Notes under the pieces: generated by a model
Databases searched by the model: none
The model's input: only the letters and a program-made list of their open reading frames with translations
Told to the model about the DNA's origin: nothing
Made by a program: the position numbers and the translations under genes
Part shown: positions 15,917 through 64,000 of the stretch, one piece after another
Layout of the letters: each line of letters opens with the position of its first letter
Numbering within the stretch: the stretch's first letter is position 1
Origin: Sorangium cellulosum
Lineage (GTDB): Bacteria > Myxococcota_A > Polyangia > Polyangiales > Polyangiaceae
Assembly: GCF_004135735.1 (NCBI RefSeq)
Contig: NZ_CP012670.1
Coordinates: forward strand, 8,200,501-8,264,500
Direction: 5' to 3'
DNA length: 64,000 nucleotides

Positions 15917-18295
15917 TTATAGCGCACCAGAGATCCGCGACCCCTGCAGCGCCTCACGACGTCTCCCCCGACGCCACGCGACCAGGCCAAGGCCGAACAG
16001 CGCGGCGAATTGCCAGCGTTCCGACGAAACACGACTGAGACTGCAGGAACAACCCGAACTGCCCTGGTCCGTGGTGCCACCATCCGCGCCCCCCGATCCA
16101 CCGGAGCTGCCCTCGGACGCGCCGCCAGTCGAACCGCCGCCAGTCGAACCGCTGCCAGTCGAACCGCTGCCAGTCGAACCGCTGCCAGTCGCACCGCTGC
16201 CAGTCGCACCGCTGCCAGTCGAACCGCTGCCAGTCGAACCGCCGCTTTCCGAAGACGAGACGCTATCGCACAGCTTGCCAGTTCCAGGAGGGGGCGAGCA
16301 CACGCCGGCGTCTGGGATGTTTTCACCCGCCGTCCCAGTGAGACGGAAGTAGATGCCGTACCTATCTGCGTATCGCTGATAGTGTGGAGTGAACGTCAAC
16401 GTGCTATCGGAGTCCGTGTTCCGCAGCGTGAATTCCGCCGTGCCCGGGGTTTGAACCAGGTTGTTCTTGATGTCGGCGATCCACTCGTTGATCGTGATGC
16501 CGTTGTTGATACCGATGGTGTCTTTGATGATGACACCAGGGGGAATAGTAGCCTTCTCAGATGCCCACTGGGGCTCCGACAGCATCCTTTCCGTCCCGAG
16601 ACCGGCGCTCAGGACGATCGGTCCGTAGACGAACGCCACTGCATTGGGGTTGTCGGGAAGTCTCGACACCTTCACCTCCATTGGCAGCGTGAGCTCCACC
16701 TTGTCTCCGGGCTTCCAGGTGCGACCTACCGTAAGGTAGCCGTTCGCTTCCGTTGCGTCGCATGCCTGACCGTTGACCGTAATCGTCACGGGCTGGCACC
16801 AAGCAACCCAGGACGGCTTTCTGAAGTTGATCGTGACCGCATCGGCCGGGGCAGCGGTAATCTCGAAAACCGCCTTGTTGGAAAGAGGGAAATTGGAGGT
16901 CTGTTTCAACGACAGACCCCGCGCGGACCAAGTCAACGTCGAGCTGAGGAACATGTTGACGTACAGATCCGTGTCGTCATGGAAGTACAAGCTGTCATTG
17001 AGCTTGGTATAGTTCTCCATACCGGTTCCGTTGCAGCACCAGAAAGTGTCCTCCGGTTTGCCGAACACCTTGAAATACCCTGTTCCCATGGGTTTGAAGT
17101 AGGTCGTCATTCCATTCGTCGGATTGACGGCAGACATGATTTCGTTGATATGGGTCTGCTCGTAGTAGTCGGCGTACTTGACGTCCCCCGTGGCTTTGAA
17201 GAGCCCTCTCGAGAGCTTCAACATGTTGTACGCGTTGCACGTTTCGTTGTTCACATTGTCCCTTTGCGCGTCCAACTGCCTGGGTTCGTGAAAATGCTCG
17301 AGTTGGCTATTCCCACCGGTGACATAGGTGTGATCCCTCAACACGATGGACCAAAACTGTTCTGCCGCGGTGTAGTAGAACTTCTCCGTTTCGCCCAGCG
17401 TCCGATAGCGGTTCAGGGCGCCGATGAACTTGGGGATTTGCGTATTGGCATGCTTGCCTGGCAGGATGTTGTTGCCTTGAGAAATCGGAGTGAAGAGCGA
17501 GTCCTCGTCGAAAACGTGGGCTGCCGTCAGGTGATTGACGTTGTTCGTCAGCCTGTACAGATCGTACAGGCAATCGTTCATGCCGCCGTACTCAACGCCC
17601 AGGACCTTCCTTCGAAGGTCCGCATCCCAGGTTGAGCTGCGATTGTAGGTCCAGTCCCCCAACTTGCTCGCGATTTCGAGGGCTGTCGCATTTCCTTCGA
17701 ACTCGTAGACGTCGATGAGGCCTGCGATGATCTTGTGCATCGTGTACCATGGCGCCCAGCTGGAGCCGTCGGCCTTCCCCTCGATGACGTCGAAATGCGT
17801 CTCCGGCGACGCGAACAGGTATCCTTTAAAATTCGCGTCTTGAAATGATTTCAATTGACTGATCGTGTAGTCGATCTTCTGCGCGATAGCGGCGCTTTGC
17901 TCCGCGTCGGAGCCATTGAGTTGTTTGTACGCTTGCGCCATGGCGGACATGTAGTGGCCTATCGTGTGCCCGCGCAAGAGGCTCCAGCCACCCTCCCACC
18001 CGCCGTAGAGATTGATGCCCGGCGAATTCCCAGGGTCCTTTCCTTGCGACACCGCCTTGAAGCCCGCCAGAAGTCGGTCGGGGTCGAGGCTCATGATGTA
18101 CGCGAGCTCTTTCGAAGAGACGTTCTGGTAGTACGCGTCGGTCACGCTCACCTCGTCCAGTTCGAACTCCTGCAGCTTCTCGACGGAGTCCGCGGCGGAC
18201 GCCACCCCGGGAGTGAGGGCTCCAAACAGAAGCGAAACAGTCAACGCGGTGGCGCCCGAGAGCGAGCGCCGGTACTGCAGGATTCTCTTGCTCAT
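15917..18295 (-). CDS. GH127-type beta-L-arabinofuranosidase, secreted, MYXO-CTERM tail
   Basis: 792 residues from the ATG at 18295, which has AAAGGAG 5 nt upstream; an ATG five codons earlier lacks this. A Sec signal ends at ASA-ADS. The body matches the GH127/DUF1680 family: GGWEGGWSLLRGHTIGHYMS, WAPWYTMHKI, then NNETCNAYNML (Glu351, Cys353) and FWCCNGTGMENY (Cys420, Cys421). These correspond to the Glu and three Cys of the zinc/nucleophile site described for the family. A 15-bp repeat codes a GSGSTGS linker. The C-terminus has CSCSL, a hydrophobic helix and an Arg-rich end, the MYXO-CTERM sorting pattern. It probably removes arabinofuranose from plant polymers. The gene is visibly less GC-rich than its neighbours, which hints at transfer. 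A decayed sugar transporter lies upstream. Confidence 0.9.
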   Translation of the reverse strand: MSKRILQYRRSLSGATALTVSLLFGALTPGVASAADSVEKLQEFELDEVSVTDAYYQNVSSKELAYIMSLDPDRLLAGFKAVSQGKDPGNSPGINLYGGWEGGWSLLRGHTIGHYMSAMAQAYKQLNGSDAEQSAAIAQKIDYTISQLKSFQDANFKGYLFASPETHFDVIEGKADGSSWAPWYTMHKIIAGLIDVYEFEGNATALEIASKLGDWTYNRSSTWDADLRRKVLGVEYGGMNDCLYDLYRLTNNVNHLTAAHVFDEDSLFTPISQGNNILPGKHANTQIPKFIGALNRYRTLGETEKFYYTAAEQFWSIVLRDHTYVTGGNSQLEHFHEPRQLDAQRDNVNNETCNAYNMLKLSRGLFKATGDVKYADYYEQTHINEIMSAVNPTNGMTTYFKPMGTGYFKVFGKPEDTFWCCNGTGMENYTKLNDSLYFHDDTDLYVNMFLSSTLTWSARGLSLKQTSNFPLSNKAVFEITAAPADAVTINFRKPSWVAWCQPVTITVNGQACDATEANGYLTVGRTWKPGDKVELTLPMEVKVSRLPDNPNAVAFVYGPIVLSAGLGTERMLSEPQWASEKATIPPGVIIKDTIGINNGITINEWIADIKNNLVQTPGTAEFTLRNTDSDSTLTFTPHYQRYADRYGIYFRLTGTAGENIPDAGVCSPPPGTGKLCDSVSSSESGGSTGSGSTGSGATGSGATGSGSTGSGSTGSGSTGGGSTGGASEGSSGGSGGADGGTTDQGSSGCSCSLSRVSSERWQFAALFGLGLVAWRRGRRREALQGSRISGAL
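16121..16240. repeat. Eight tandem 15-bp units coding a Gly-Ser-Thr linker
   Basis: Eight units of gcNgccagtcgNacc lie in frame in the GH127 gene and code the linker before the sorting tail. Copies differ only at two positions. Confidence 0.95.
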
Positions 18296-25783: not shown

Positions 25784-27283
25784 CTACTGGCGGCCGAGGT
25801 AGCTCATGAGCCAGGTCATGGCCGGCCGCATGGGGCCGTCGTTGGCCTGCTGAAGGCCCGTGTTGGCCCTCCAGGTGGCGCCGATGACGTGACCCCAGAG
25901 GGTGATGCCCGTGACCTTCGGGTGCGTGTAGAACATCGTGAACTGCTCCTCCATCACCCGCTTCTGCTGGTTGTCGTCCGCGAGGCCGATGTCGTACTCG
26001 GTGATGTGCACGGGCTTGCCCAGGGAGGCGAGCTGGTCGATGTACCTCTTCACCGTGGCGGTGTTGATCTTGTACGCGTCGTGGGCCTGCGCGCCGAGGG
26101 CGTCGACCGGGGCGCCCGCCTGGATCACCGCCCTCGCGATCTTCATGAAGTTCTGGTGATCGGCCTCGTACTCGATGTTGTTGTAGTCGTTGAGGATCAG
26201 GACCGCGTTCGGGCAGAGCTCGCGGGCCCACTTGAAGGAGTTGACGATCCAGTCATAGCCGCTGGCGCCGTCGCCGCCGATGGCGTTCTTGTAGGAAGGC
26301 GTGGTGTGGGGCGGCGGCTCGTTGACGACGTCGATGTACTTCGTGTTGGGGTAGCGCTGGCAGAACGCCTGCATCCAGTCGCGCACGGCCTGCCGCTGGT
26401 CCGCCGCGGAGAGCTGCGTGATCCAGGTCGGCTGCTGGCTGCCCCACACGAAGACGTGCTGCTTGAAGATGATGTTGTTCTGCTGCGCGAACTGGTAGAT
26501 CCGGTCGAGCGCGCTCCAGTCTCGCTGGCCCCGGGACCGCTCGACGGAGCCCCACTTGCCCTCGTTCTCGGGCGTGATCTGGTCCCAGTGCCTCTCGAAG
26601 CCCCTCTCCACGGCGTTCCTCGTCGTGATGTTGCCGACGAACTTCTTGCCCGGCGTGCCGCCGCCGCCGCCCGAGCCGCCGCCGCCCGAGCCGCCGCTGC
26701 CGCCGGAGCCCCCGGCGCCGCCGCTGCCGCCGGAGCCGCCAGCGCCGCTGCTCGTCGAGGAGCTCGATGAGGTGCTCGTCGAGGAGCTCGATGAGGTGCT
26801 CGTCGAGGAGCTGCTCGTGCTGGTGCTCGAACCTCCGTTGCCGCCGCCGTTGCCGTTGCCGGTGACGGAGACGAGCGTGGGCATCCCGGCGCCGTTCGCG
26901 CAGAAGCCGAACGACGCCGTGCCGCCGTTCTTGGCCACTGTCCCGTTGTAGCCCACGTTGACGGCGTTCAACTGCCCGTTCGACTGGGTGAGGGTCGCGT
27001 TCCACCCGTTGCTCAGCGTCGCGCCGTTGAGCCCGACGACCACGCGCCAGCCGGTGGTCGCGCTCTCGCCCAGGTTCTTGATCGTCACGTTCGCGCAGTA
27101 CCCATTGTGCCACTGCGACGGAACCGTGAGCGTCGCCTCCGTCCCGCCATCCTGGCTGACCACCCCGGAGCTCAGGAAATCGCTGTCTTCCTCGTCGAGG
27201 GGCTCGACGGTGCAGGCGACCAAGCAGCAAGCCAGAGAGGCAAATGAAGCAGCGAAGTAACCAAGCAAGCGATGGGTATACAT
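25784..27283 (-). CDS. Secreted endo-1,4-beta-xylanase, CBM2 plus GH10
   Basis: 499 residues from an ATG with AGGAGA 6 nt upstream. A signal ends in CCLVAC, probably a lipobox. Residues 45-140 are a cellulose-binding module of family 2 type (SQWHNGYCANVTIKN, TGWRVVV, SNGWNATLTQ, ASFGFCANG). A linker of Ser/Thr and then Gly/Ser repeats spans 150-210. The GH10 domain occupies 215-499: TPENEGKWGSVE, the acid/base Glu322 in YIDVVNEP, and the nucleophile Glu429 in VHITEYDIG. It cuts the xylan backbone. With the GH127 enzyme this indicates use of plant hemicellulose. The catalytic domain is somewhat short for GH10 but has all key blocks. Confidence 0.94.
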   Translation of the reverse strand: MYTHRLLGYFAASFASLACCLVACTVEPLDEEDSDFLSSGVVSQDGGTEATLTVPSQWHNGYCANVTIKNLGESATTGWRVVVGLNGATLSNGWNATLTQSNGQLNAVNVGYNGTVAKNGGTASFGFCANGAGMPTLVSVTGNGNGGGNGGSSTSTSSSSTSTSSSSSTSTSSSSSTSSGAGGSGGSGGAGGSGGSGGSGGGGSGGGGGTPGKKFVGNITTRNAVERGFERHWDQITPENEGKWGSVERSRGQRDWSALDRIYQFAQQNNIIFKQHVFVWGSQQPTWITQLSAADQRQAVRDWMQAFCQRYPNTKYIDVVNEPPPHTTPSYKNAIGGDGASGYDWIVNSFKWARELCPNAVLILNDYNNIEYEADHQNFMKIARAVIQAGAPVDALGAQAHDAYKINTATVKRYIDQLASLGKPVHITEYDIGLADDNQQKRVMEEQFTMFYTHPKVTGITLWGHVIGATWRANTGLQQANDGPMRPAMTWLMSYLGRQ

Positions 27284-27783
27284 CAAGGTTCTCCTGGTCG
27301 GATCGGCCGACCCGCGGACGTCTGTTCGAGACGAATAATTAAACCAAGGATGCGCCCGCGAGCGCTGCCGGTCCATGGGTTGAATCCACGATTCCCGGTC
27401 AGCGCTCTCTTATCACGGTTATGCCGATCGGCATGCCTCCTTTGTACGCCGAACGTCAAAGTGGCCGCGGGGGCAACCCTCGCACACAGCCGCCTTCCCT
27501 GCGCGAAGGGGCGAACACGGGATCATGCCGGCAATACAGCGGCGCGGTACGCGCTGGCCACGTGAAGAATCATGGCCATGTCAATCCGCCCTCCCGGGAA
27601 AGACACGACGACTCGACAATTCATCCATGGTACGGCCGGGCACCACGGCAGTCCGACGCTTCGCCTGGAGCGCAAACACTCCATGACACCGGACAGGCGG
27701 GGAGCCAGGCGCGCGGGGGCCGCGGCGGCGCGACCTCGGCCTCCTCACTTCCGGAACGGCTGAGCTTGCCCTACAGTCCGGCG
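27284..27783. other. 500-bp divergent intergenic region
   Basis: It lies between the xylanase (leftward) and the flavin oxidoreductase (rightward). It is AT-richer near 27320-27480 and probably holds both promoters. No gene or clear operator is supported. Confidence 0.5.
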
Positions 27784-44189: not shown

Positions 44190-45809
<1,620 letters not shown>

Positions 45810-45816
45810 AGAAGGA

Positions 45817-45835
45817 TGTATAGTCACCCTATACA
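45817..45835. promoter_or_regulatory. Inverted repeat, probable RtcR activator site
   Basis: TGTATAG-N5-CTATACA: perfect 7-bp arms with spacer tcacc. It lies 60 bp upstream of the -24 box of rtcB and 8 bp from the rtcR start. That suits an enhancer for rtcBA and a self-control site for rtcR. Confidence 0.7.
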
Positions 45836-45894
45836 CGAGGATAAACGCCGCGGCCAGCGGCCCGCGATCGCCGGGGATCCCGGCGCGCCCCGGG

Positions 45895-45909
45895 TGGCAC
45901 GCGCCGTGC
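45895..45909 (+). promoter_or_regulatory. Sigma-54 promoter of rtcBA
   Basis: TGGCACGCGCCGTGC: matches TGGCACG-N4-TTGC at every fixed base but one (G for the first T of the -12 box), with exact spacing. It is 68 bp before the rtcB ATG. Together with RtcR this predicts sigma-54 control. Confidence 0.75.
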
Positions 45910-45976
45910 GATGCGGTGCCGTGTCGCGCGGCGCGCCGGCCCGCCGGCGCAACCCCCTCTGCCTGGAGATGCCATC

Positions 45977-47203
<1,227 letters not shown>

Positions 47204-47269
47204 GCCGGGGCCCGGCGCCGTGGTATCGCTCATCGGGCGGTATCGCTCATCCAGGGAGAGTCGACTGCC

Positions 47270-48289
47270 ATGCTGACCATCGATGGATCCTTCGGCGAGG
47301 GAGGGGGCCAGATCCTCCGCACGACGCTCGGCCTCTCGCTGATCACGCAGACGCCCGTCCGGATCACCTCGATCCGCAAGGGCCGCGCGCGCCCGGGGCT
47401 CCTGCGGCAGCACCTCACCGCGGTGCAGGCCGCGGCCCAGGTCGGCCGCGCCGAGGTGACGGGCGCGGCGCTCGGATCGCAGGAGCTCGAGTTCCGGCCG
47501 ACGGCGATCGCGCCGGGCGAGCACGCCTTCCGGGTCGGCAGCGCGGGGAGCACGACGCTCGTGCTCCAGACCGTGCTGCCCGCGCTGCTCCGCGCGGGCG
47601 CGCCGTCGACGCTCACGCTGGAGGGCGGCACGCACAACCCCATGGCGCCGCCGTTCGATTTCCTGGACCTCGCGTACCTGCCGCTCGTGCGGCGGATGGG
47701 GCCGGACGTCCGGGCCACGCTCGTCTCGCCGGGCTTCTACCCGGCCGGCGGCGGGCGCGTCCGGGTCTCGATCACGCCGGCGCCGGCGCTCGCGCCGCTC
47801 GAGCTGCTCTCGCGCGGCGAGATCGTGCGCCAGAGGGCCGTCGCGACGGTCTCGAACCTCCCGGGCTCCGTCGCCACGCGCGAGCTCGACGCGGCGGCGG
47901 CGGTGCTCGGCTGGGCGCCCGCGTGCTTCGCGCCGAGCGTGCTCTCCGGAGGCCACGGGCCGGGCAACGTGCTCACGATCGTCGTGGAGAGCGAGCGCGT
48001 GACCGAGGTGTTCACCGGGTTCGGCGTGAAGGGCGTGCGCGCCGAGTCGGTCGCCCAGAAGGCCGCCGAGGAGGCGCGCGACTACCTCGAGGCCGGCGTC
48101 CCGGTGGGCGAGCACCTCGCCGATCAGCTGCTCTTGCCGATCGCGCTCGCCGGGCGCGGCGCCATCCGGACGGTGCGGCCGTCGTCGCACGCGACGACCC
48201 AACTGCGCCTGCTCGGCGAGCTGCTCGGGATCCGCGCCTCGGTCGAGCAGATCTCCGAGCGCGCGTGGCACGTCGAGATCGGGCGCTGA
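47270..48289 (+). CDS. rtcA: RNA 3'-terminal phosphate cyclase
   Basis: 339 residues, 66 bp after rtcB. It turns RNA 3'-phosphate into a 2',3'-cyclic phosphate using ATP. Family blocks: IDGSFGEGGGQILRTTLGLS, IRKGRARPGLLRQHLTAVQA, SAGSTTLVLQTVLPALL, GGTHNPMAPPFDFL, and RPSSHATTQLRLL with the catalytic His that takes AMP. A short direct repeat (cggtatcgctcat, twice) lies in the gap to rtcB. It forms the RNA repair unit with RtcB. Confidence 0.96.
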   Translation: MLTIDGSFGEGGGQILRTTLGLSLITQTPVRITSIRKGRARPGLLRQHLTAVQAAAQVGRAEVTGAALGSQELEFRPTAIAPGEHAFRVGSAGSTTLVLQTVLPALLRAGAPSTLTLEGGTHNPMAPPFDFLDLAYLPLVRRMGPDVRATLVSPGFYPAGGGRVRVSITPAPALAPLELLSRGEIVRQRAVATVSNLPGSVATRELDAAAAVLGWAPACFAPSVLSGGHGPGNVLTIVVESERVTEVFTGFGVKGVRAESVAQKAAEEARDYLEAGVPVGEHLADQLLLPIALAGRGAIRTVRPSSHATTQLRLLGELLGIRASVEQISERAWHVEIGR

Positions 48290-54560: not shown

Positions 54561-55664
54561 CTACTCGGCCGTGGCGGCGGGCTCCTGGCGCAGGACGGCC
54601 CAGACGAACTCCGGGATGAGCGCGAGCGAGTACGGGTCCTGTGTGACGCCGATGAGGCCGCTGATGAACTCCATCGAGTGCTCCCGGCGGTGCGCGTCGA
54701 TGAACCGCAGCGGCGCGCTGGTCAGCCCCGGCGGGAGCTGCGCGAGCCCCGGCCCCTCCGGCCGGGCCACCGCCGCGAGCGGGCTGCGCGGGGCCTCCGC
54801 CGCCTGCCACCGTTCGAGCCAGCCGTCGATATACGGGCTCGGGATGAAGTGGTCCGCGGGGAAGGCGCGCAGGTAAGGGAAGAGCACGTGAATCCAGCCC
54901 GTGAGCTCGTCCGCGGCGTTCTCGTAGCGGAAGAAGGAGCGCCAGAACGCGGGGTCCTGATGCCCCTCCGCGGCGGCGGTGATCCGGTCGAGCACGGGCA
55001 GGAGCGCGCCGGTCCAGCGCTCGGCGCCGAACGAGTCGAATGCTTCCGCGCGGGCGCGTACGGAGCGCCAATCCTCGGCCGTGCCGAGCAGATAAATGCG
55101 GGGGATCCCGCGGCTCGAGAACACCATGTCGGCCGGGAAGGGCGGCGTCCACTCGAAGTGCGGCGCGAACGGGGTCGTCACGGCGAGCTCCGAGGCCACC
55201 TGCTCGACCGGCCCCGTGGTCGAGAAGCGGGCGGTCACGTGCTCGGCCAGCTTGCCGACCCGCGCGGCGATCTGGGCGGAGAGCTCCTGGAACGAGGCGG
55301 GCCACGGGTTCACCTGACCGAGGGTGAAGTCCGGCCGATCGAGCGTCAGCGCGAACTCCCCATCTTCCTGGAGGACCTGACGCCGCTGCTCCTCGTGCGC
55401 GGCGATGTGGAGCGCGAGCCCCCGCGCCAGGCAAAGCCAGATCACGTCGGGCGAGAGCACGAGCGGATAGCGCTGGGTGAAGGCCATGGTCGCCGCCTGG
55501 ACGAGGGGGTGCACGTCCGTGCGCCCGACGAGCGGCAGCCGGTGGCGATAGGCGGCCTCGATCGGCGAGACGAGCAGGCTCTGCACCGCCTCGGCCTCGT
55601 CGAACGCGGGCAGCGGCGTCGTCGAAGGCTCGACCTCGGCGACGGCGATGGTTGTAATGCTCAT
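54561..55664 (-). CDS. DUF4419 family protein
   Basis: 367 residues; AGGACAGGGAACC precedes the ATG. It reads VHPLVQAATMAFTQRYPLVL, SPDVIWLCLARGLALHI, VNPWPASFQELSAQIAARVG, DMVFSSRGIPRIYLLGTAED and FWRSFFRYENAADELTGWIH, the DUF4419 pattern found across bacteria and fungi. Function unknown. No signal peptide or membrane helix, so it is probably cytoplasmic. It is divergent from the giant gene across 174 bp. Confidence 0.88.
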   Translation of the reverse strand: MSITTIAVAEVEPSTTPLPAFDEAEAVQSLLVSPIEAAYRHRLPLVGRTDVHPLVQAATMAFTQRYPLVLSPDVIWLCLARGLALHIAAHEEQRRQVLQEDGEFALTLDRPDFTLGQVNPWPASFQELSAQIAARVGKLAEHVTARFSTTGPVEQVASELAVTTPFAPHFEWTPPFPADMVFSSRGIPRIYLLGTAEDWRSVRARAEAFDSFGAERWTGALLPVLDRITAAAEGHQDPAFWRSFFRYENAADELTGWIHVLFPYLRAFPADHFIPSPYIDGWLERWQAAEAPRSPLAAVARPEGPGLAQLPPGLTSAPLRFIDAHRREHSMEFISGLIGVTQDPYSLALIPEFVWAVLRQEPAATAE

Positions 55665-55838
55665 GGTTCCCTGTCCTCTTTGCCCGGCGCGACGGCCTCA
55701 CGCTTCATCGCGGTCCTGTCGTAACACGGGGGCGCCGCTCGGAACAACTCGGCCCGGGTGGGATGGAACGGAATCCCTCGCCGGCGCGCGCGGGTGGAGG
55801 CGCTTGGCGCCGCGTGCATTTCGGGGCAAACATGGGTC

Positions 55839-58800
55839 ATGCGCAGGTCTTCGAGCAGTCGTTCGCCGTCGCCGTCCGCAGGCGCTCGTTCATCGCTGCG
55901 AGCTCAGGTGAAGAGCGCGGGCAACTTCGCGCATCCGTCGTCCGGCACCAGCAGCCCGACCGGCAGCACGGCCGCCCCCGGCGCCTTGAACCAGGCCGCG
56001 GCCCCGAGCCCGACCCCGAAGCCGAGCGCGGCCTCGGGCTGGGATCCCGTCACGCGGAAGGCGGTCAACACGGCGAGCTCCCCCGGCGCGACGTCCACGC
56101 CGAGCACCACGCCGCACACGACGGCGGGGAACCCGTCCGGGAGCACGACGGCCGGCAATCCTGGGTCCAGCATGGGGCAAGCGCCCACGAGCGCTTCCGC
56201 TTCGGCACACCCAGCGCCGAGGGCGCCTGCGTCTCCGGTCGATGTCCCGCGGGCCCAGCCCGCTGCGCCGAGTGCGCCTGCGTCTCCGGTCGATGTTCCG
56301 CGGACCCAGCCCGCTGCGCCGAAAGCGCCCTCATCTCCGGTCGATGTTCCGCGGACCCAGCCCGCTGCGCCGAGTGCGCCTGCGTCTCCGGTCGATGTTC
56401 CGCGGACCCAGCCCGCTGCGCCGAAAGCGCCCTCATCTCCGGTCGATGTTCCGCGGGCCCAGCCCGCTGCGCCGAGGGCGCCCACGCCTCCGGTCGATGT
56501 CCCGCGGGCCCAGCCCGCAACGCCGAGTGCGCCTGCGTCTCCGGTCGATGTTCCGCGGGCTCAGCCCGCTGCGCAGAAGCCGCCCACTTCTCCGGTCGAT
56601 GTTCCGCGCACTCAGCCCGCTGCGCCGAAGGCGCCCTCATCTCCGGTCGATGCTCCGCGGGCCCAGCCCGCTGCGCCGAAAGCGCCCTCATCTCCGGTCG
56701 ATGCTCCGCGGGCCCAGCCCGCTGCGCCGAAAGCGCCCACTTCTCCGGTCGATGCTCCGCGCACTCAGCCCGCTGCGCCGAAAGCGCCCTCATCTCCGGT
56801 CGATGCTCCGCGGGCCCAGCCCGCTGCGCCGAAAGCGCCCTCGTCTCCGGTCGATGCTCCGCGGGCCCAGCCCGCTGCGCCGAAAGCGCCCTCGTCTCCG
56901 GTCGATGCTCCGCGGGCCCAGCCCGCTGCGCCGAAAGCGCCCTCGTCTCCGGTCGATGCTCCGCGGGCCCAGCCCGCCGCGCCGAAAGCGCCCTCGTCTC
57001 CGGTCGATGCTCCGCGGGCCCAGCCCGCCGCGCCGAAAGCGCCCTCGTCTCCGGTCGATGCTCCGCGGGCCCAGCCTGCTGCGCCGAAAGCGCCAACTTC
57101 TCCGGTCGAGGCTCCGCGGGCCCAGCCCGCTGCGCCGAAGCCGCCCACTTCTCCGGCCGATGCTCCGCAGGCACAGCCCGCTGCGCCGAAAGCGCCCACC
57201 TCTCCGGTCGATGTCCCGCGGGCCCAGCCCGCTGCGCCGAAGCCGCCCACTTCTCCGGCCGATGCTCCGCAGGCCCAGCCCGCTGCGCCGAAGCCGCCCA
57301 CTTCTCCGGCCGATGCTCCGCAGGCCCAGCCCGCTGCGCCGAAGCCGCCCACTTCTCCGGCCGATGCTCCGCAGGCCCAGCCCGCTGCGCCGAAAGCCAG
57401 CGAGGCATCCGACAAGGCCGCGGCGAAGAACGGCGCGTCGACCCAGACCTCGACCACGACGGGCCAGAGCAGCGCAAAGACCGATGCGCAGAGCTCGCCG
57501 CCGGAAAAGCCCGCTGCGACCCCGCAGGGCGCGCCCGCCGGATCCTCAACCCCCCAGACGAAGACCGCCGGGCGCGACTCCCCGCCGCCCGGGCCCGAGC
57601 GCCCAGCGCCGCAGCCAGGGGGCTCGTCGACCACCACGACGACCTCCTCCAGCCCGCGCGGCCAGGTGACGTGGATCGCGGACAAGGCCGTCAAGGAGTC
57701 CAGCTTCCGGACCGACACGCGCAGGGGACAGCGCAACCAGGCCAAGCGAGGTGCCCCCACGATCGCCGACGTGCTGAACAGCGGCGGCTTTCCCAGCGAT
57801 CCCGCGAAGGCGAAGCAGGAGATCGGAAGGCGATTCCCCAAGGGATCGCTGCTCAGCGACGACGAGTGGAGCGCCTTCGAGCAGCTCTCCACGACCCCCG
57901 AGGGACAGCGCTGGCTCAACGCCTCGGGCATGCTCACGCACGACCAGGTCGAGAAGTACCTGTCGGACGACGAGCGCGACAACCCCGAGAGGTTCCGCGG
58001 CTTCCACCAGCTCCACAAGGCGAGCAAGGTCGTCCTCGCGAGCTACGTCGCGCGACAGCGGAACGGCGGCCAGGGTGGACAGCGGTTCAAGGGCACTCCC
58101 CCGGAGGCGATCGCCCTCTCGATGGAGGCGCGGCACACCCCCGACCCGGCGAGGAGAGAAGAGCTCAAGAACGAGATCGATCAGAACATCACCGCAGAGT
58201 GGGCGAAGACGCTCGAGTACACCGATCTCAACGACGACGCCATCACGGCGATCGAGCACGGCGCCGTGGCGGACCCGACCGACCCGGACACGAAGCTCTC
58301 GACGGACGAGGTCCGCGACAGGCACCTGCAGGCGACGGAGGTGCTCAAGAACATCTTCCACCTGCTCCAGGAAGGCGCCGAGATCTACGACGCCAGCGAA
58401 GGACGTCACGTCCCGCTCCGCGACGTGCCCGTGGCGAAGCTCCTGTCGCACGGCGGCCGTGTCAACATCCAGATCCCCGCGGGCAGCCCGCCGCACGCGC
58501 TGCCCGACCTCCTCGGCATCACCGACAAGGACGGCAACCCGACGACCGGCGTGTTCAAGCGCGCCTTCGGGACGCACCATGTCGCGCTCGGCAAGAAGAA
58601 GTTCAAGGAAGAGGGGGGGCACGTCGCCGCGATCAAGTCCAAGCTGGACGACACCAGGCTCCACGGCATGAACCTCGCCATCGGCGGGATCGGCCAGAGG
58701 GACTTCAACGGCGATGTCATCCTGCCCGACGGCGCGCACGGACACATCTTCATCGGCTACCGGCCGCCGAAGAAGGACAGGCCGGGAGCGCTCCAGATCG

Positions 58801-61800
58801 GCATCGAGACCACCGGGCCTCACGCGCCGAGCACCGTCGGCTACATCCACAACTGGCGCTCCACGGAGAAGACCGCCAACCCCGTCTCCAGCGTCGGCGG
58901 CCTCAAGCAGGACAAGATCGGCGACGAGCGGATCAAGAACGCGCGCACCGTCGACCTGAACAAGCTCGGGGACGACTGGGAGAGCACCCTCAAGGACCGC
59001 GCGGACAGGTTCGAACAGGACCTGAAGGACAATCCCAAAGAGGCGATCGGCAAGCTCGTCGGCCCGCGCGAGCTTCCGCAGGACGCCCCCCGGGATGCCG
59101 GGACGCGCGCTTCCGAGGAGCGGCCGGGCGGGTCCGACCACGATCCGCGGGACAACGACCCCCGCGATCCGCCCGGCGATGCGCCCGGCGCGACGCAGGC
59201 GCCCGCGGGCAACGTGACGGGGAGCCAGCCCAGGCAGGCTCCGGCGCCGCCCGGCGATGCGCCCGGCGCGACGCAGGCGCCCGCGGGCAACGTGACGGGG
59301 AGCCAGCCCAGGCAGGCTCCGGCGCCGCCCCTGGCTGCCGCCCCCGCGAGCGACGGCTCCACGGCCCCGAAGGGCGGGCTCTTCGCCACCGCGCCCGAGA
59401 CCGCCGCCGGAGACGCGACCGAGGACTCCACGGCGGACACCAGGGCCCAGGCCGAGGCGATGGAGGTGCTGAAGCAGCAGGAGACGCTCAGGATCTTCAT
59501 CCCCCGGGCGCGCGGCAACGGCCATCAGGGCAGCTCGGTGCAGCTCATGACCAGGCTCGCCCAGCTCGGCTTCTCGGGCGAGTTCGACGTGATCTACGAC
59601 GACACGGAGCCCAGGACAGAAGAAGACAGGAAGGAGTACGGCTCGAACCCGAAGAAGCTCGAGAGCCTCCTGCCAGGCTTCAAGGCGGGTGGCCCCCCCG
59701 TCCAGCGCCTCGAGACGCTCGGGCTCAAGGTCAACGTCATGGGCCTCGAGACGTTCGAGGCCCGGTCCGACCGGAAGCCAGCGAAGTACGGGCTCACCGG
59801 CGCCGTGGACAACCACCACAAGCCGAAGGACATCCTGACCAAGCTCGGTGTCGACGTCTTCGCGCAGCTCCAGCCCATGGACTGGAACCGCGAGAGCGGC
59901 AGGCGGGGGATCACCTACAGGGACAGCGAGGGCAATGAGCGGTTCCACGAGGCCCTGGCCCTCTCCGACCTGGGCTACATCTACGACACCACGCCCCCGG
60001 CCGACCCCAGGGCGATGATCAAGGACGAGCTCGCGAAGAGCGGCACCGAGGCCAAGGAGGCCGGCGTCCTCGCGTTCCTCGATCAGACCGACACGAGAGA
60101 CGCGCACACCATGGTCGTCTACGGGCTCGGCACGGCGACCGGGCCGCGAGCGCCCGTCCTCGAGCTGTTCAACCTCATCACGGGGGTCCTGTACGCCCAG
60201 GATGACAAGGACGCAGGGACGGACCTCAAGGACAAGGGCGCGATCATCGGGGCGGCTGGCTGGGTGAACCAGGACGAGATCGCCACGCTCAAGAAGATGC
60301 TCGACGGCGAATGGGAGGGCGGCCTCCGGCTCCTCGTCGACAGCGAAGACAGCACCTGGCGGGGCGACTACGAGGAGCTCATCGCGCGCCTGAAGAGCAA
60401 GCTCTTCGACGGCGAGACCCCGCGCGTGCGCGTGATCAACGTCGAGGAGCCGGGCGCGGCCGAGAGCATCAAGAACGTCGGCCCCGGCCAGGTGCTCGTG
60501 GTCGAGTTCTCGCCGGGCCGCCTCCCCATGCCCGTCTTCGAGCACCTCCGCTCCAGGACGTCCCTGCCCAACGGCTTCGAGAGCGTCAACGGCATGGACA
60601 AGGAGCGGCAGAACAAGCCCTATTTCCATGTCGCGAGCGAGGTCAGCAACAGGTTCCCGGGATCGGACAAGCTCGACGGCGTGCCCGGCGCGGATGACAT
60701 CGCGAAGGAGGCCGTGCGCGTCGGCGAGATGCTCCAGGGCCGCAAAGGCGTCGATCCCTGGAAACGAAACTACAGCGACAACGACCGGGACGGCATCTTC
60801 GAGGCGGTATCGCGCCTGGATCCGCCCCTCGTGCTGAAATCCCCCAGAAAGGAGGGCCGCAACGTCACGATCAAGCTCGGCAGCGGCGGGGTCATCGGCA
60901 CAGGAGAACCCAAGGTCAAGGGCAAGTACGACACCAGGCCCCGCGACAAAGCCTACACATCGACCGAGCTCCAGAAGCTTTATGATGACAACAAAGATGA
61001 CCTCATCAAGCCCAGGCTGCGGCAGGACGATCCCGACCGGATCATCGGGCGGTACATCAACGAGGCGCAGAAGCCCGACTCGGCGCTGAGCAGGTATTTC
61101 GAGGCGCTCAAGGAGCGGTCCAGGGCCAAGGATCAGGTGAAGCTCGCCTTCACGGAGCTCGTCAAGGTCGAGAAGGCTCCTCCCCCGCCGCCCGTCGAGG
61201 GCGACGGCATGGCGACCGCACCCGAGGCCGCTGCCTCCACCGGAGAGGGCAAGGAAGAGCTGTCCGGGGGCGGCGACCCCTCCGCGCCCCGCGAGGCCCC
61301 GGCCCCCTCGGAGGCAGCCGGCGCCGCCGCCGACCAGACCGCGACGGCCGAGGACGGGGCGCAAGGCCTCGGGCCGTCGCCGGCGGCGCAGGACCTGTCG
61401 CGGGCCGGGCTGACCGACAGGGGGATGGAGCGCGGCCTGCGGGGGAGCGCCCTCGAGGAGTATATCCAGCGTGCGCGGGCGACCGGCGACACGGATCCGA
61501 CCAGCTACCTGAAGTCGCTGGTGGACGATATCGACAGCATGCCTCCTGGATTCAAGGCCAGGGCCAAGGAGCTGCTCGAGCACCCCGGGCGGCTCCAGCA
61601 GCAGGACTTCGCCATCTGCGGGCTCGCGGCCATCGCCGAGGCGGCCCTGCACAACAACCCCATGAAGGCCATCGACGTCTTCAGGTCGCTGTTCGCGTCG
61701 ACGCCCTTTCCGCTGGAGTCGGGCGGGACCCTCCGCGTCACGCCCGGCCAGGACGAGGTGGCCCGGGGGAAGGACCCGAAGCGCAACGTCTTGCTCGGGG

Positions 61801-64000
61801 GCAGGCTCAAGCAGATCGACAGCATGTCCGCGCGGACGGGCAAGGACTACGGCGACAAGCGCCTCGATTTCCTGCTCGCCCGGGCCCTGCCGAAGCTCTG
61901 GAAGACGCGGTCGAAGGACGCGTACGACGCCTGGATCAAGGAGGTCGAGAGGGCCTTCGACGAGGACTTCGCCCAGGCGAGAGGGCAGCTCGACGCCAGC
62001 GGCGCGCGCCTGAAGCGCGGCGACTTCCCGATGAACGACGTCGCCTACGGCAGCATCCTCAAGGACGTCCTCGGGGCGGCCGACGTCGACATCCTGTCCT
62101 CGCCGCGCGGCGGGTACGACATCGACGCGATCAACGCGCTGTTCGACGACGAGGGCCGAGGGCCCTTCGTCCACGGCTTCGTCCTCGCCGCGCCGGTGAA
62201 CGCCGAAGCGAAGAAGTACGCGCCCGGCTCCGATCACCTCGGCGCGCCTCAGGGCATCGGCGCGTGGAAGGAGCCGGCCAGCTCGTTCAAGAGCCCAGGG
62301 CTGCACCAGGTCAGGATCGCCGGTCCCATCGAGACGACCACGACCCCCGAGGGCGAGGAGGCCTATGTCGTCCCCATCTCGACGTACGGGAAGGCCTTCC
62401 CGTTCGTGGTGCAGAAGGACAGGCTGGGGGAGTATTTCCCGAGCATCTTCACCGGCCGCTGGCACCCGCCGGCGCCGCCTCCGGCCGCGGGGTCGCCCTC
62501 GGCCGTCGCGCCCGAGGACGCCGCCCCCACGGCGGGCGAGGGCGAGCTGTTCGCTGCCGCGCCCGAGGCCGGCCCCACCGGCGCCGCGGACGCGGGCCGC
62601 GGCGCGACCGAGGGCGCCACGGATCCCGCGGCCCACGCCGAGGCGATGGAGGAGCTGAAGCAGCAGGAGAGGCTCAGGATCTTCGTGCCCCGGGCGCAGG
62701 GCAACGGCCATCAGGGCAGCTCGGTGCAGCTCATGTCGAGGCTCGTCAAGCTCGGCTTCTCCGGCGAGTTCGACGTGGTCTACGACGACACGCCCCCCGG
62801 GACAGAGGCCGACAGGAAGAAGTACGGCTCGAACCCGAAGAAGCTCGAGAGCCTCCTGCCGGGCTTCAAGGCGGATGGCCCCCCGGTCCAGCGCCTCGAG
62901 ACGCTCGGGCTCAAGGTCAACGTCATGGGCCTCGAGACGTTCGAGGCCGAGCGCGACCGGAGGCCGGCGAAGTACGGGCTCACCGGCGCCATGGACAACC
63001 ACGAGAAGCCGAAGGACCTCCTGACGAAGCTCGGCGTCGACGTCTTCGCGCAGCTCCAGCCCCTGAACTGGAACCGCGAGAGCGGAAGGCGGGGGATCAC
63101 CTACAGGGACAGCGAGGGCAACGAGCGGTTCCACGAGGTCGAGGCCCTCTCCAGGCTGGGCTACATCTACGACACGACGCCCCCGGACGACCCCGGGGCG
63201 ATGATCAAGGACGAGCTCGCGAAGAGCGGCACCGAGGCCAAGGAGGCCGGCGTCCTCGCGTTCCTCGATCAGACCGACACGAGGGACGCGCACACCATGG
63301 TCGTCTACGGGCTCGGCACGGCCATGGAGGACAACTCCAAGGCGCCCGTCTTCGAGCTGTTCAACCTCATCACGGGCGTCCTGTACGCCCAGGATGACGC
63401 GAGCGCGGGGACCGACCTCAAGGACAAGGGCGCGATCATCGGGGCCGCGGGCTGGGCGGACCAGGGCGAGATCGAGACGCTCAAGAAGATGCTGAGCGGC
63501 GACTGGGAGGGTGGTCTGCGGCTCCTCGTCGACCGGGGCGACGCCGTCGGCATGGATGGCTGGGAAGAGCTCGTGGATCGCCTGAAGGAGCGGCTCTTCA
63601 AGGACGGACGCCCGCGCGCGCGCGTGGTCAACGTCGAGGATCCGAGGGCCGCGGAGATCATCGCCGGCGTCGAGCCCCACCAGGTGCTCGTGGTCGAGTT
63701 CTCGCCGGGCCGCCTCCCCATGCCCGTCTTCGAGCACCTCCGCTCCAGGACGTCGCTGCCCAACGGCTTCGAGAGCGTCAACGGCATGGACAAGGAGCGG
63801 CAGAACAAGCCCTATTTCCATGTCGCGAGCGAGATCAGCAACAAGTTCCCGAAGTCGGATGAGCTCGACGGCGTGCCCAATGCGGACCGCGTGGCGAGGC
63901 GCGCCGAGCTCATCGGGGAGCAGCTCCAGGGGCGCAACGGCCTCCGGAGCTGGCTCTTGAACTACAACGACAGCGATCGAATCGAGATCTTCAAGGCGAT
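55839..64000 (+). CDS. Giant repeat protein with duplicated GT-B-like domain (3' end outside window)
   Basis: The frame is open for more than 2,720 codons. I chose ATG 55839; no strong ribosome site or signal peptide is seen. Residues 125-514 are 23 units of PAAPKAPSSPVDVPRAQ. A linker to about 620 is Ser/Thr/Pro-rich. A folded region of about 400 residues follows (IADKAVKESSFRTDTRRGQ, DLNDDAITAIEHGAVADP, NGDVILPDGAHGHIFIGYRP). Residues 1207-1660 and 2269 to the end are copies of one domain: RIFxPRAxGNGHQGSSVQL, KLESLLPGFK, DVFAQLQP, LVVEFSPGRLPMPVFEHLRS, SLPNGFESVNG, NKPYFHV. That is GT-B-like by pattern. Between them lies DFAICGLAAI with Cys1927. It could be a secreted toxin or effector; this is inference. 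Confidence 0.8.
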   Translation, partial: MRRSSSSRSPSPSAGARSSLRAQVKSAGNFAHPSSGTSSPTGSTAAPGALNQAAAPSPTPKPSAASGWDPVTRKAVNTASSPGATSTPSTTPHTTAGNPSGSTTAGNPGSSMGQAPTSASASAHPAPRAPASPVDVPRAQPAAPSAPASPVDVPRTQPAAPKAPSSPVDVPRTQPAAPSAPASPVDVPRTQPAAPKAPSSPVDVPRAQPAAPRAPTPPVDVPRAQPATPSAPASPVDVPRAQPAAQKPPTSPVDVPRTQPAAPKAPSSPVDAPRAQPAAPKAPSSPVDAPRAQPAAPKAPTSPVDAPRTQPAAPKAPSSPVDAPRAQPAAPKAPSSPVDAPRAQPAAPKAPSSPVDAPRAQPAAPKAPSSPVDAPRAQPAAPKAPSSPVDAPRAQPAAPKAPSSPVDAPRAQPAAPKAPTSPVEAPRAQPAAPKPPTSPADAPQAQPAAPKAPTSPVDVPRAQPAAPKPPTSPADAPQAQPAAPKPPTSPADAPQAQPAAPKPPTSPADAPQAQPAAPKASEASDKAAAKNGASTQTSTTTGQSSAKTDAQSSPPEKPAATPQGAPAGSSTPQTKTAGRDSPPPGPERPAPQPGGSSTTTTTSSSPRGQVTWIADKAVKESSFRTDTRRGQRNQAKRGAPTIADVLNSGGFPSDPAKAKQEIGRRFPKGSLLSDDEWSAFEQLSTTPEGQRWLNASGMLTHDQVEKYLSDDERDNPERFRGFHQLHKASKVVLASYVARQRNGGQGGQRFKGTPPEAIALSMEARHTPDPARREELKNEIDQNITAEWAKTLEYTDLNDDAITAIEHGAVADPTDPDTKLSTDEVRDRHLQATEVLKNIFHLLQEGAEIYDASEGRHVPLRDVPVAKLLSHGGRVNIQIPAGSPPHALPDLLGITDKDGNPTTGVFKRAFGTHHVALGKKKFKEEGGHVAAIKSKLDDTRLHGMNLAIGGIGQRDFNGDVILPDGAHGHIFIGYRPPKKDRPGALQIGIETTGPHAPSTVGYIHNWRSTEKTANPVSSVGGLKQDKIGDERIKNARTVDLNKLGDDWESTLKDRADRFEQDLKDNPKEAIGKLVGPRELPQDAPRDAGTRASEERPGGSDHDPRDNDPRDPPGDAPGATQAPAGNVTGSQPRQAPAPPGDAPGATQAPAGNVTGSQPRQAPAPPLAAAPASDGSTAPKGGLFATAPETAAGDATEDSTADTRAQAEAMEVLKQQETLRIFIPRARGNGHQGSSVQLMTRLAQLGFSGEFDVIYDDTEPRTEEDRKEYGSNPKKLESLLPGFKAGGPPVQRLETLGLKVNVMGLETFEARSDRKPAKYGLTGAVDNHHKPKDILTKLGVDVFAQLQPMDWNRESGRRGITYRDSEGNERFHEALALSDLGYIYDTTPPADPRAMIKDELAKSGTEAKEAGVLAFLDQTDTRDAHTMVVYGLGTATGPRAPVLELFNLITGVLYAQDDKDAGTDLKDKGAIIGAAGWVNQDEIATLKKMLDGEWEGGLRLLVDSEDSTWRGDYEELIARLKSKLFDGETPRVRVINVEEPGAAESIKNVGPGQVLVVEFSPGRLPMPVFEHLRSRTSLPNGFESVNGMDKERQNKPYFHVASEVSNRFPGSDKLDGVPGADDIAKEAVRVGEMLQGRKGVDPWKRNYSDNDRDGIFEAVSRLDPPLVLKSPRKEGRNVTIKLGSGGVIGTGEPKVKGKYDTRPRDKAYTSTELQKLYDDNKDDLIKPRLRQDDPDRIIGRYINEAQKPDSALSRYFEALKERSRAKDQVKLAFTELVKVEKAPPPPPVEGDGMATAPEAAASTGEGKEELSGGGDPSAPREAPAPSEAAGAAADQTATAEDGAQGLGPSPAAQDLSRAGLTDRGMERGLRGSALEEYIQRARATGDTDPTSYLKSLVDDIDSMPPGFKARAKELLEHPGRLQQQDFAICGLAAIAEAALHNNPMKAIDVFRSLFASTPFPLESGGTLRVTPGQDEVARGKDPKRNVLLGGRLKQIDSMSARTGKDYGDKRLDFLLARALPKLWKTRSKDAYDAWIKEVERAFDEDFAQARGQLDASGARLKRGDFPMNDVAYGSILKDVLGAADVDILSSPRGGYDIDAINALFDDEGRGPFVHGFVLAAPVNAEAKKYAPGSDHLGAPQGIGAWKEPASSFKSPGLHQVRIAGPIETTTTPEGEEAYVVPISTYGKAFPFVVQKDRLGEYFPSIFTGRWHPPAPPPAAGSPSAVAPEDAAPTAGEGELFAAAPEAGPTGAADAGRGATEGATDPAAHAEAMEELKQQERLRIFVPRAQGNGHQGSSVQLMSRLVKLGFSGEFDVVYDDTPPGTEADRKKYGSNPKKLESLLPGFKADGPPVQRLETLGLKVNVMGLETFEAERDRRPAKYGLTGAMDNHEKPKDLLTKLGVDVFAQLQPLNWNRESGRRGITYRDSEGNERFHEVEALSRLGYIYDTTPPDDPGAMIKDELAKSGTEAKEAGVLAFLDQTDTRDAHTMVVYGLGTAMEDNSKAPVFELFNLITGVLYAQDDASAGTDLKDKGAIIGAAGWADQGEIETLKKMLSGDWEGGLRLLVDRGDAVGMDGWEELVDRLKERLFKDGRPRARVVNVEDPRAAEIIAGVEPHQVLVVEFSPGRLPMPVFEHLRSRTSLPNGFESVNGMDKERQNKPYFHVASEISNKFPKSDELDGVPNADRVARRAELIGEQLQGRNGLRSWLLNYNDSDRIEIFKA
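56211..57380. repeat. 51-bp tandem array, 23 units
   Basis: One 48-bp unit followed by 22 units of exactly 51 bp, coding a Pro/Ala-rich 17-residue repeat (PAAPKAPSSPVDVPRAQ and variants). All three plus-strand frames and at least two minus-strand frames stay open through it, because 51 is divisible by three and the unit lacks stops. Units in the middle (56790-57070) are most alike, with codon-level variants at the edges. Confidence 0.97.
59169..59324. repeat. Perfect 78-bp tandem duplication
   Basis: 59169-59246 and 59247-59324 are identical. They code a 26-residue Pro/Ala/Gly linker twice (PPGDAPGATQAPAGNVTGSQ, then PRQAPA) just before the first GT-B-like domain. Full identity means the copy is recent. 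Confidence 0.96.
59454..60830. repeat. Intragenic direct repeat, copy A (about 1.37 kb)
   Basis: Codes the first copy of the GT-B-like domain, from EAMEVLKQQE to DRDGIFEAVS. It matches copy B, 3,186 bp downstream, over nearly its whole length with scattered substitutions and small in-frame indels. Many 40-60-base stretches are identical, such as at 60490-60620. Confidence 0.9.
62640..64000. repeat. Intragenic direct repeat, copy B (cut by the window end)
   Basis: Codes the second copy, from EAMEELKQQE onward. The linker before each copy also resembles the other (GGLFATAPETAAG versus GELFAAAPEAG), so the duplicated unit includes the linker. Confidence 0.9.

Follow-up and report, generated by a model that had tools for sequence, protein, structure and literature searches.

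A giant Ntox11-bearing protein of Sorangium cellulosum, probably a modular multi-effector

The stretch of DNA analysed here (hereafter the window) comprises 64,000 nucleotides of the Sorangium cellulosum genome (G000:C1:8200501-8264500; genome G000, a single contig of 11.26 Mb), and its right-hand end is occupied by the 5' part of a giant gene on the plus strand (55839..64000), delimited by its open reading frame and by the N-termini of relatives. The open frame of over 2,720 codons recorded in a preliminary description made from the letters alone is real, with 2,720 codons between an ATG at 55839 and the window end, and reading the genome beyond that end, as had been proposed, showed that the frame stays open up to a stop at window-scale position 70076 (L009:15076, the two scales differing by 55,000) and encodes 4,745 aa in total. 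The window thus holds 57% of the gene, and the remaining ~6 kb lie beyond it. An in-frame GTG upstream at 55758 would extend the portion within the window to 2,747 codons, and the ATG is preferred because relatives open with a similar head (MPSSRSSSRSPSPS.. versus MRRSSSSRSPSPS..). Coding is supported by a GC content of 0.89-0.91 at third codon positions, by relatives that keep these module types in intact frames, and by the conservation of the Ntox11 motifs in all 16 module copies. A minus-strand antisense frame of more than 2,000 codons (57546-63998) most likely arises as a side effect of GC-rich codon use. Immediately after the stop lies a 43-bp direct repeat of 8.3 copies (L009:15093-15448), followed by a sigma-70-family gene. 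Elsewhere, the window carries an RNA repair cluster with the RtcR regulator, RtcB ligase and RtcA cyclase (44190-48289), a GH10 glycoside hydrolase with a CBM2 cellulose-binding domain (25784-27376), and the 2-kb block of lowest G+C (16001-18000; 0.58, against 0.63-0.79 in the others), which contains few convincing frames and is possibly foreign.

The protein is built as a row of modules, whose residue numbers are counted here from the GTG (ATG numbering is lower by 27). Head and linker together span residues 1-658. The head (55839..56213) has a Ser/Arg/Pro-rich start (SRSPSPS..LRAQVK..GNFAHP) and a subsequent low-complexity stretch, and the 23-unit linker already noticed in the DNA follows as a tandem repeat at 56214..57397, where a 51-bp unit encoding 17 residues recurs 23.2 times with 91% matches to give a Pro/Ala-rich chain. 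Next come a 480-aa module, termed NT (residues 659-1138; 57732..59171), an inter-module linker with a 78-bp direct repeat of 2.1 copies at 100% identity (59169..59330), copy A of a transferase-like module with GT-B-like motifs and a putative fold (residues 1226-1800; 59433..61157), copy A of a module termed CYS, papain-like by motif only (residues 1901-2267; 61458..62558), and transferase-like copy B, assigned by its homology to copy A (residues 2288-2860; 62619..64000, continuing to window-scale 64337), all on the plus strand. ARAGORN reports a tRNA-Arg (ccg) on the minus strand at 61257-61342, within the linker between transferase-like copy A and CYS, probably by chance. Beyond the window follow a second CYS (residues 2936-3306), a PIN-like candidate proposed from a reading of conserved residues (3455-3890), a PolyA_pol-type nucleotidyltransferase supported by Pfam and PDB (3904-4129), an unassigned segment common to relatives up to residue 4480, a candidate RNase-like domain of the BECR type, likewise read from conserved residues (4441-4652), and a tail (4725-4772) matching positions 1-46 of the CYS profile. 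An architecture of two transferases in tandem, as first proposed, falls well short of this far larger row in the full gene. Just three Pfam families matched the whole giant at E up to 1, and the activities assigned to all modules are predictions from sequence.

The firmest assignment concerns the NT module. The folded middle domain with HGHIFIGYRP that had been singled out earlier falls within a match to Ntox11 (PF15521; 121 bits against a cut-off of 25, E 8.6e-35, profile positions 39-269 of 294, at ~58416-59003). In Zhang et al. 2012 (PMC3482391), the family is characterised by the motifs GxR, RxxxoH, H, GxE and GxxH; our readings of these (GGRVN, RxxGTHH, AHGH, GxETTG and YxHN) each occur 16 times in 16 module copies, with the Gly of the GxxH motif replaced by Ala in some copies. 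An NT profile matched five of six genomes of the genus, the exception (G002) being an 89%-complete draft, and a draft contig of G005 carries one copy in a 1,354-aa frame. A search of the phylum with Ntox11 returned the own genome alone (1 of 377), the genus siblings apparently lying outside that sample. A free-standing NT relative, 35.7% identical over 85%, is encoded on a Streptomyces plasmid (506-aa frame, L091:5743-7263, Ntox11 E 1.8e-47). Scans of viral sequences with the NT and transferase modules gave no match. According to a study of a Legionella effector (PMC11696984), a distant Ntox11-like domain contributes to toxicity in yeast.

The transferase-like module is harder to place. Alignment of the two copies over 574 residues gives 74.6% identity, which bears out the duplication seen at the outset and lengthens the domain from the ~450 residues then estimated to about 575 each. 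Their divergence (dN 0.176, dS 0.233) indicates weak constraint and is uneven, 50-codon blocks being 46-98% identical in protein, a pattern that a duplication followed by patchy gene conversion, under loose or diversifying selection, would be expected to leave. All four known sequences keep G-x-G-H near the start and E..N and P near the end; the GxGH, the E..N pair and the Pro persist in two free-standing relatives of 29% identity, one of which lacks the Lys of the KP motif that had been highlighted. We take this pattern to recall the acceptor and donor loops of GT-B glycosyltransferases, with which the module shares it, but no sequence-profile match to them emerged: Pfam gave nothing relevant, a PDB profile search gave no match with the module or with a relative as query, and hhalign of the four-sequence profile against one PF13528 protein of the same genome returned a probability of 0.2 per cent (0.0 for an OTCase control), a four-sequence profile against a single sequence being a weak comparison and little evidence against the fold. 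A structure model of the window's two copies, computed as had been suggested, was too poor for fold comparison (pLDDT 39.6, pTM 0.29); its order of strands and helices alternates and would fit GT-B, the two Rossmann lobes being neither visible in it nor excluded by it. Of the original proposal of two GT-B transferase units, the conserved motifs have thus held up and the support from Pfam, PDB and the PF13528 profile has failed to appear, and we consider a GT-B fold slightly favoured.

The profile search with the two copies that had also been suggested yielded few relatives, namely 2 of 59, 2 of 377 and 3 of 108 genomes in overlapping samples, with the own genome counted each time, and the rows of the four-sequence alignment stem from the same three genomes. 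Among the four giant loci compared, the module occurs in G000 only. G036 has a free-standing module of 29% identity; a TsiV immunity gene is ~2.3 kb away from it, and the VgrG-VRR_NUC partner of that gene, on the other strand, 3.3 kb. A search of phages with this relative gave no match, and neither did PADLOC. In G026 the module is flanked by two zinc-ribbon-like ends, both below Pfam cut-offs. Two genome contig scans and a plasmid scan with the module were empty. Residues 2883-3971 of the G001 giant (L052:14247-17513) form a 1,089-residue stretch that looks by eye like a possible second transferase-like domain; neither Pfam, at its cut-off, nor the PDB gave a match for it.

For the CYS module, the likeliest role is that of a cysteine hydrolase effector. 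In copy A the Cys is module residue 54 and the His module residue 283; both are invariant in all 11 copies aligned, and in an alignment that includes two distant relatives they are kept in 7 of 7 sequences, the third catalytic position, Asp or Asn in papain-like peptidases, being variable. Pfam returned no match for the module at E up to 10. The structure model, built like that of the transferase from window sequences only, is poor (pLDDT 40.6), with the Cys within a helix and the His shortly ahead of the terminal strands. Outside the genus the profile found two weak relatives (E 1e-4 and 9e-5), the phylum search giving 3 of 377 genomes including the own one, with five candidates scored per genome; a plasmid scan gave no match. 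One relative (L070:256-2430 in G378, 724 aa) has an N-terminal eCIS_core (PF13699, E 5e-9) and a C-terminal CYS, making it a candidate new eCIS effector family in its own right, and the other (L069, E 9e-5) is a small protein with a hydrophobic start.

Of the remaining modules, the excised nucleotidyltransferase domain matches PolyA_pol (PF01743, E 2.6e-17), the head domain of tRNA nucleotidyltransferases and poly(A) polymerases, and, in a PDB search, CCA-adding enzymes (1.7e-12), and scores far under the cut-offs of full-length NCBIfam models; it carries the GG..DxD region of such domains. In the candidate PIN-like and RNase-like modules, acidic or His/Lys residues are invariant in 5 of 5 aligned sequences, and Pfam at E up to 10 was empty for these parts except for one spurious-looking match at 0.21.

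The locus has counterparts in other members of the genus. Five other genomes were sampled (G001-G005, three of them near-complete at 13.5-14.8 Mb), and the giant locus, linked to a DUF4419 gene, is also present in three of them (G001, G003 and G004). Long homologues were found with a 1,721-residue stretch from the C-terminal half; this search matched 54 of 59 genomes, 50 of them without a long match, mainly in the nucleotidyltransferase part at ~27-51% identity, and these 50 were left out as relatives because they are presumably housekeeping enzymes. G002 and G005 also have a short match to the start of CYS. The sibling proteins are intact in G001 (8,709 aa) and G003 (7,949 aa) and interrupted in G004, where frames of 411 (the head), 4,037 and 2,649 aa were read; at G004:C1:11751546-11774249 (L056/L057), head and body stand in different frames, and the body contains one in-frame TAG. 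Cassettes vary in number and kind. In the order G000, G001, G003 and G004, there are 1, 7, 4 and 4 NT copies (one in G004 cut by the break), 2, 4, 3 and 3 CYS copies plus a tail resembling the start of CYS in each, and 1, 1 (with an extra nucleotidyltransferase), 2 and 1 PIN-nucleotidyltransferase-RNase blocks. In each of the four loci, CYS stands repeatedly between other modules, and the NT copies of G001 often stand without CYS between them. G003 and G004, two of the three sibling loci, add a ubiquitin-specific protease domain (PF00443, E 1e-13 and 8e-13) immediately ahead of the tail, with the Cys-box GNSC and the His-box GHYTA; the one in G003 matches USP2 and USP15 in PDB. G004 also has three stretches with HExxH, and a Pfam scan of the first of them gave no match.

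These proteins resemble one another in head and tail. By eye, the start is similar in G003, G004 and a small G001 gene, and looser in the G001 giant; the repeat linkers that follow differ in sequence among loci, G003 and the small G001 gene carrying another repeat. The tail ends in HSTCSCVR in the G001 giant, HSTCTCVR in G004 and HSACTCVR in G003; in G000 the tail, a repeat of the beginning of CYS, finishes in cysteines (MIECC), without the final CxCVR. A C-terminal frameshift that cuts a CYS after 48 residues was considered and rejected, since the same cut module also ends the G001, G003 and G004 proteins and is thus a kept tail and not a break. The small G001 gene (G001:C1:11602230-11605187, L052:2230-5187; a 985-aa frame whose probable true start is residue 238) adjoins DUF4419 directly before the 8,709-aa giant and consists of a head, a long (QPQDTKG)n linker and a tail ending in HSTCTCVR. 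None of seven module profiles matched it at E up to 10, and its tail was also missed by the CYS profile, though similar by reading to that of the neighbouring giant. The start of the Streptomyces plasmid Ntox11 protein has LGNQA, similar to the head of this gene. The head-linker-tail make-up of the small G001 gene, together with the tails kept among siblings, indicates that head and tail act as a frame for whatever cargo lies between them, and this cassette-free version offers the strongest single clue to how the giant protein works.

The route of delivery was considered from the neighbourhood and from the protein itself. A DUF4419 gene on the minus strand (54561..55664) is the divergent neighbour of the giant gene, and the same divergent arrangement holds in 4 of 4 loci compared, at 77-81% identity. 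The neighbour check proposed in the preliminary description came back empty: ten neighbouring frames were scanned, one merely overlapping the DUF4419 gene and one downstream frame being left out, and they included neither a secretion gene nor a named immunity family. Its label 'secreted-type' fared no better, as a simple Kyte-Doolittle scan of the whole protein gave no hydrophobic signal or membrane-like stretch (highest 19-residue mean 1.23, and -0.05 for segments starting in the first 60 residues). Pfam at E up to 1 gave no RTX, CPD, eCIS-core or secretion domain in the giant. An eCIS-like locus with two sheath matches and an eCIS_core in a 2,619-aa frame lies elsewhere in the genome (G000:C1:5052759-5061272), far from the giant locus. 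An eCIS as obligatory carrier was rejected, since neither an eCIS-core nor a sheath match was obtained in G001, the genome that encodes the longest protein.

The reading that we prefer, with a probability of roughly 0.6, is that of a modular multi-effector giant that acts in other cells, after delivery into them or release there, with eukaryotes as the likelier main target. A similar head and tail would frame a row of exchangeable enzyme cassettes on flexible Pro/Ala/Glu-rich linkers, and once the giant is delivered into or released within another cell, the modules would work there as separate enzymes; release upon ingestion or lysis would be compatible with the data. Relatives of CYS, NT and the transferase-like module are free-standing or stand in eCIS or type VI settings, which favours effector functions. 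The earlier idea of a multi-domain effector or toxin has in this respect gained good support, from Ntox11, from the ubiquitin-specific proteases of siblings and from these relatives. Eukaryotes, such as grazing protists or fungi, would be the likelier main targets, given that siblings repeatedly carry ubiquitin-specific proteases and Ntox11. A ubiquitin protease is missing from the window protein itself, whose PIN-like, nucleotidyltransferase and RNase-like parts would suit bacteria too, and the RNA-directed modules could serve against either. Also weighing against the preferred reading are the lack of a hydrophobic signal, of a membrane-like stretch and of RTX, CPD or eCIS-core matches in the giant, the empty result for secretion genes in the neighbouring frames scanned, the missing eCIS markers of G001 and the weak constraint on the transferase-like copies.

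A polymorphic toxin aimed mainly at competing bacteria, whose modules attack RNA and for which an unrecognised neighbour, DUF4419 for example, or another factor provides immunity, would fit the PolyA_pol domain with its GG..DxD region, the invariant acidic or His/Lys residues (5 of 5) of the candidate PIN-like and RNase-like modules, the DUF4419 gene beside all four loci and the transferase relative close to a type VI VgrG. We regard it as unlikely, for the ubiquitin-specific proteases of two of the three sibling loci lack a usual substrate in bacteria, the neighbours scanned include no named immunity family, and DUF4419 is 77-81% identical while the cassettes vary, unlike an immunity gene matched to its toxin. 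Another reading casts the CYS copies as processing peptidases that free the effectors in the target cell, in a self-cutting carrier of MARTX type. Their repeated placement between other modules in all four loci, the invariance of Cys and His across all 11 aligned copies, and the helix-borne Cys and His shortly ahead of terminal strands in the low-confidence model speak for it, but some CYS relatives, free-standing or preceded by an eCIS-core, have no cassette that they could release, the third catalytic position varies, Pfam is empty at E up to 10, and NT copies of G001 often adjoin without CYS between them. As the principal explanation this appears rather doubtful, and cutting the giant apart is a possible second role of CYS. 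Very improbable, finally, is a giant protein with an intracellular or structural role in the producer itself, built from retired toxin domains, or a decaying product of recombination. The lack of an export signal in the Kyte-Doolittle scan, the interrupted G004 copy (411, 4,037 and 2,649 aa) and the weak constraint between the transferase-like copies (dN 0.176 versus dS 0.233) would agree with it, whereas intact frames of 4,745, 7,949 and 8,709 aa persist in three genomes, the Ntox11 motifs in 16 of 16 modules, and the Cys and His of CYS in 7 of 7 sequences that include two distant relatives.

MARTX toxins are giant single proteins in which effector domains form a variable row accompanied by a Cys-type module, together with RTX repeats and a C80 cysteine protease. 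The giant described here shares the variable row and the Cys-type module, but has no RTX repeats or C80 cysteine protease domain in Pfam at E up to 1. According to Zhang et al. 2012 (PMC3482391), giant actinobacterial proteins likewise unite toxin domains of several kinds (metallopeptidases, caspases, ARTs, MCF1-SHE) within a very long polypeptide; judged from that description, the domains and the phylum are other here, and a similar head and tail surround duplicated Ntox11, CYS, transferase-like, nucleotidyltransferase and ubiquitin-protease cassettes. The same authors list Ntox11 as a toxin domain delivered by PVC, with an N-terminal metallopeptidase of PVC/eCIS type (eCIS_core, PF13699, equal to DUF4157) in the same protein, and argue that PVC toxins without immunity neighbours may target distant organisms. 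One CYS relative follows such an eCIS_core, whereas the 4,745-aa giant has no match to it at E up to 1 and the carrier genome G001 has no eCIS marker matches. A literature search, covering mainly freely accessible journals, gave no title on this protein family among the matches listed.

More tentatively, and with the odds somewhat against it, the locus may represent a genus-restricted new class of weapon, in which effector cassettes are acquired, duplicated and swapped within a carrier of head and Cys-ended tail that G001 also has without a recognised cassette, the largest loaded protein reaching ~8,700 residues in G001, with a new eCIS-independent delivery and with CYS and the transferase-like module as new families. 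What sets the locus apart is that effector cassettes vary within a single polypeptide instead of between genes, so that close relatives offer natural comparisons and the cassette-free gene a natural empty vector. The question posed by head and tail is how proteins of roughly 0.5-0.9 megadalton get to their target, and the presence of ubiquitin proteases among relatives of what is probably a soil myxobacterium would indicate an arsenal against eukaryotic grazers or prey.
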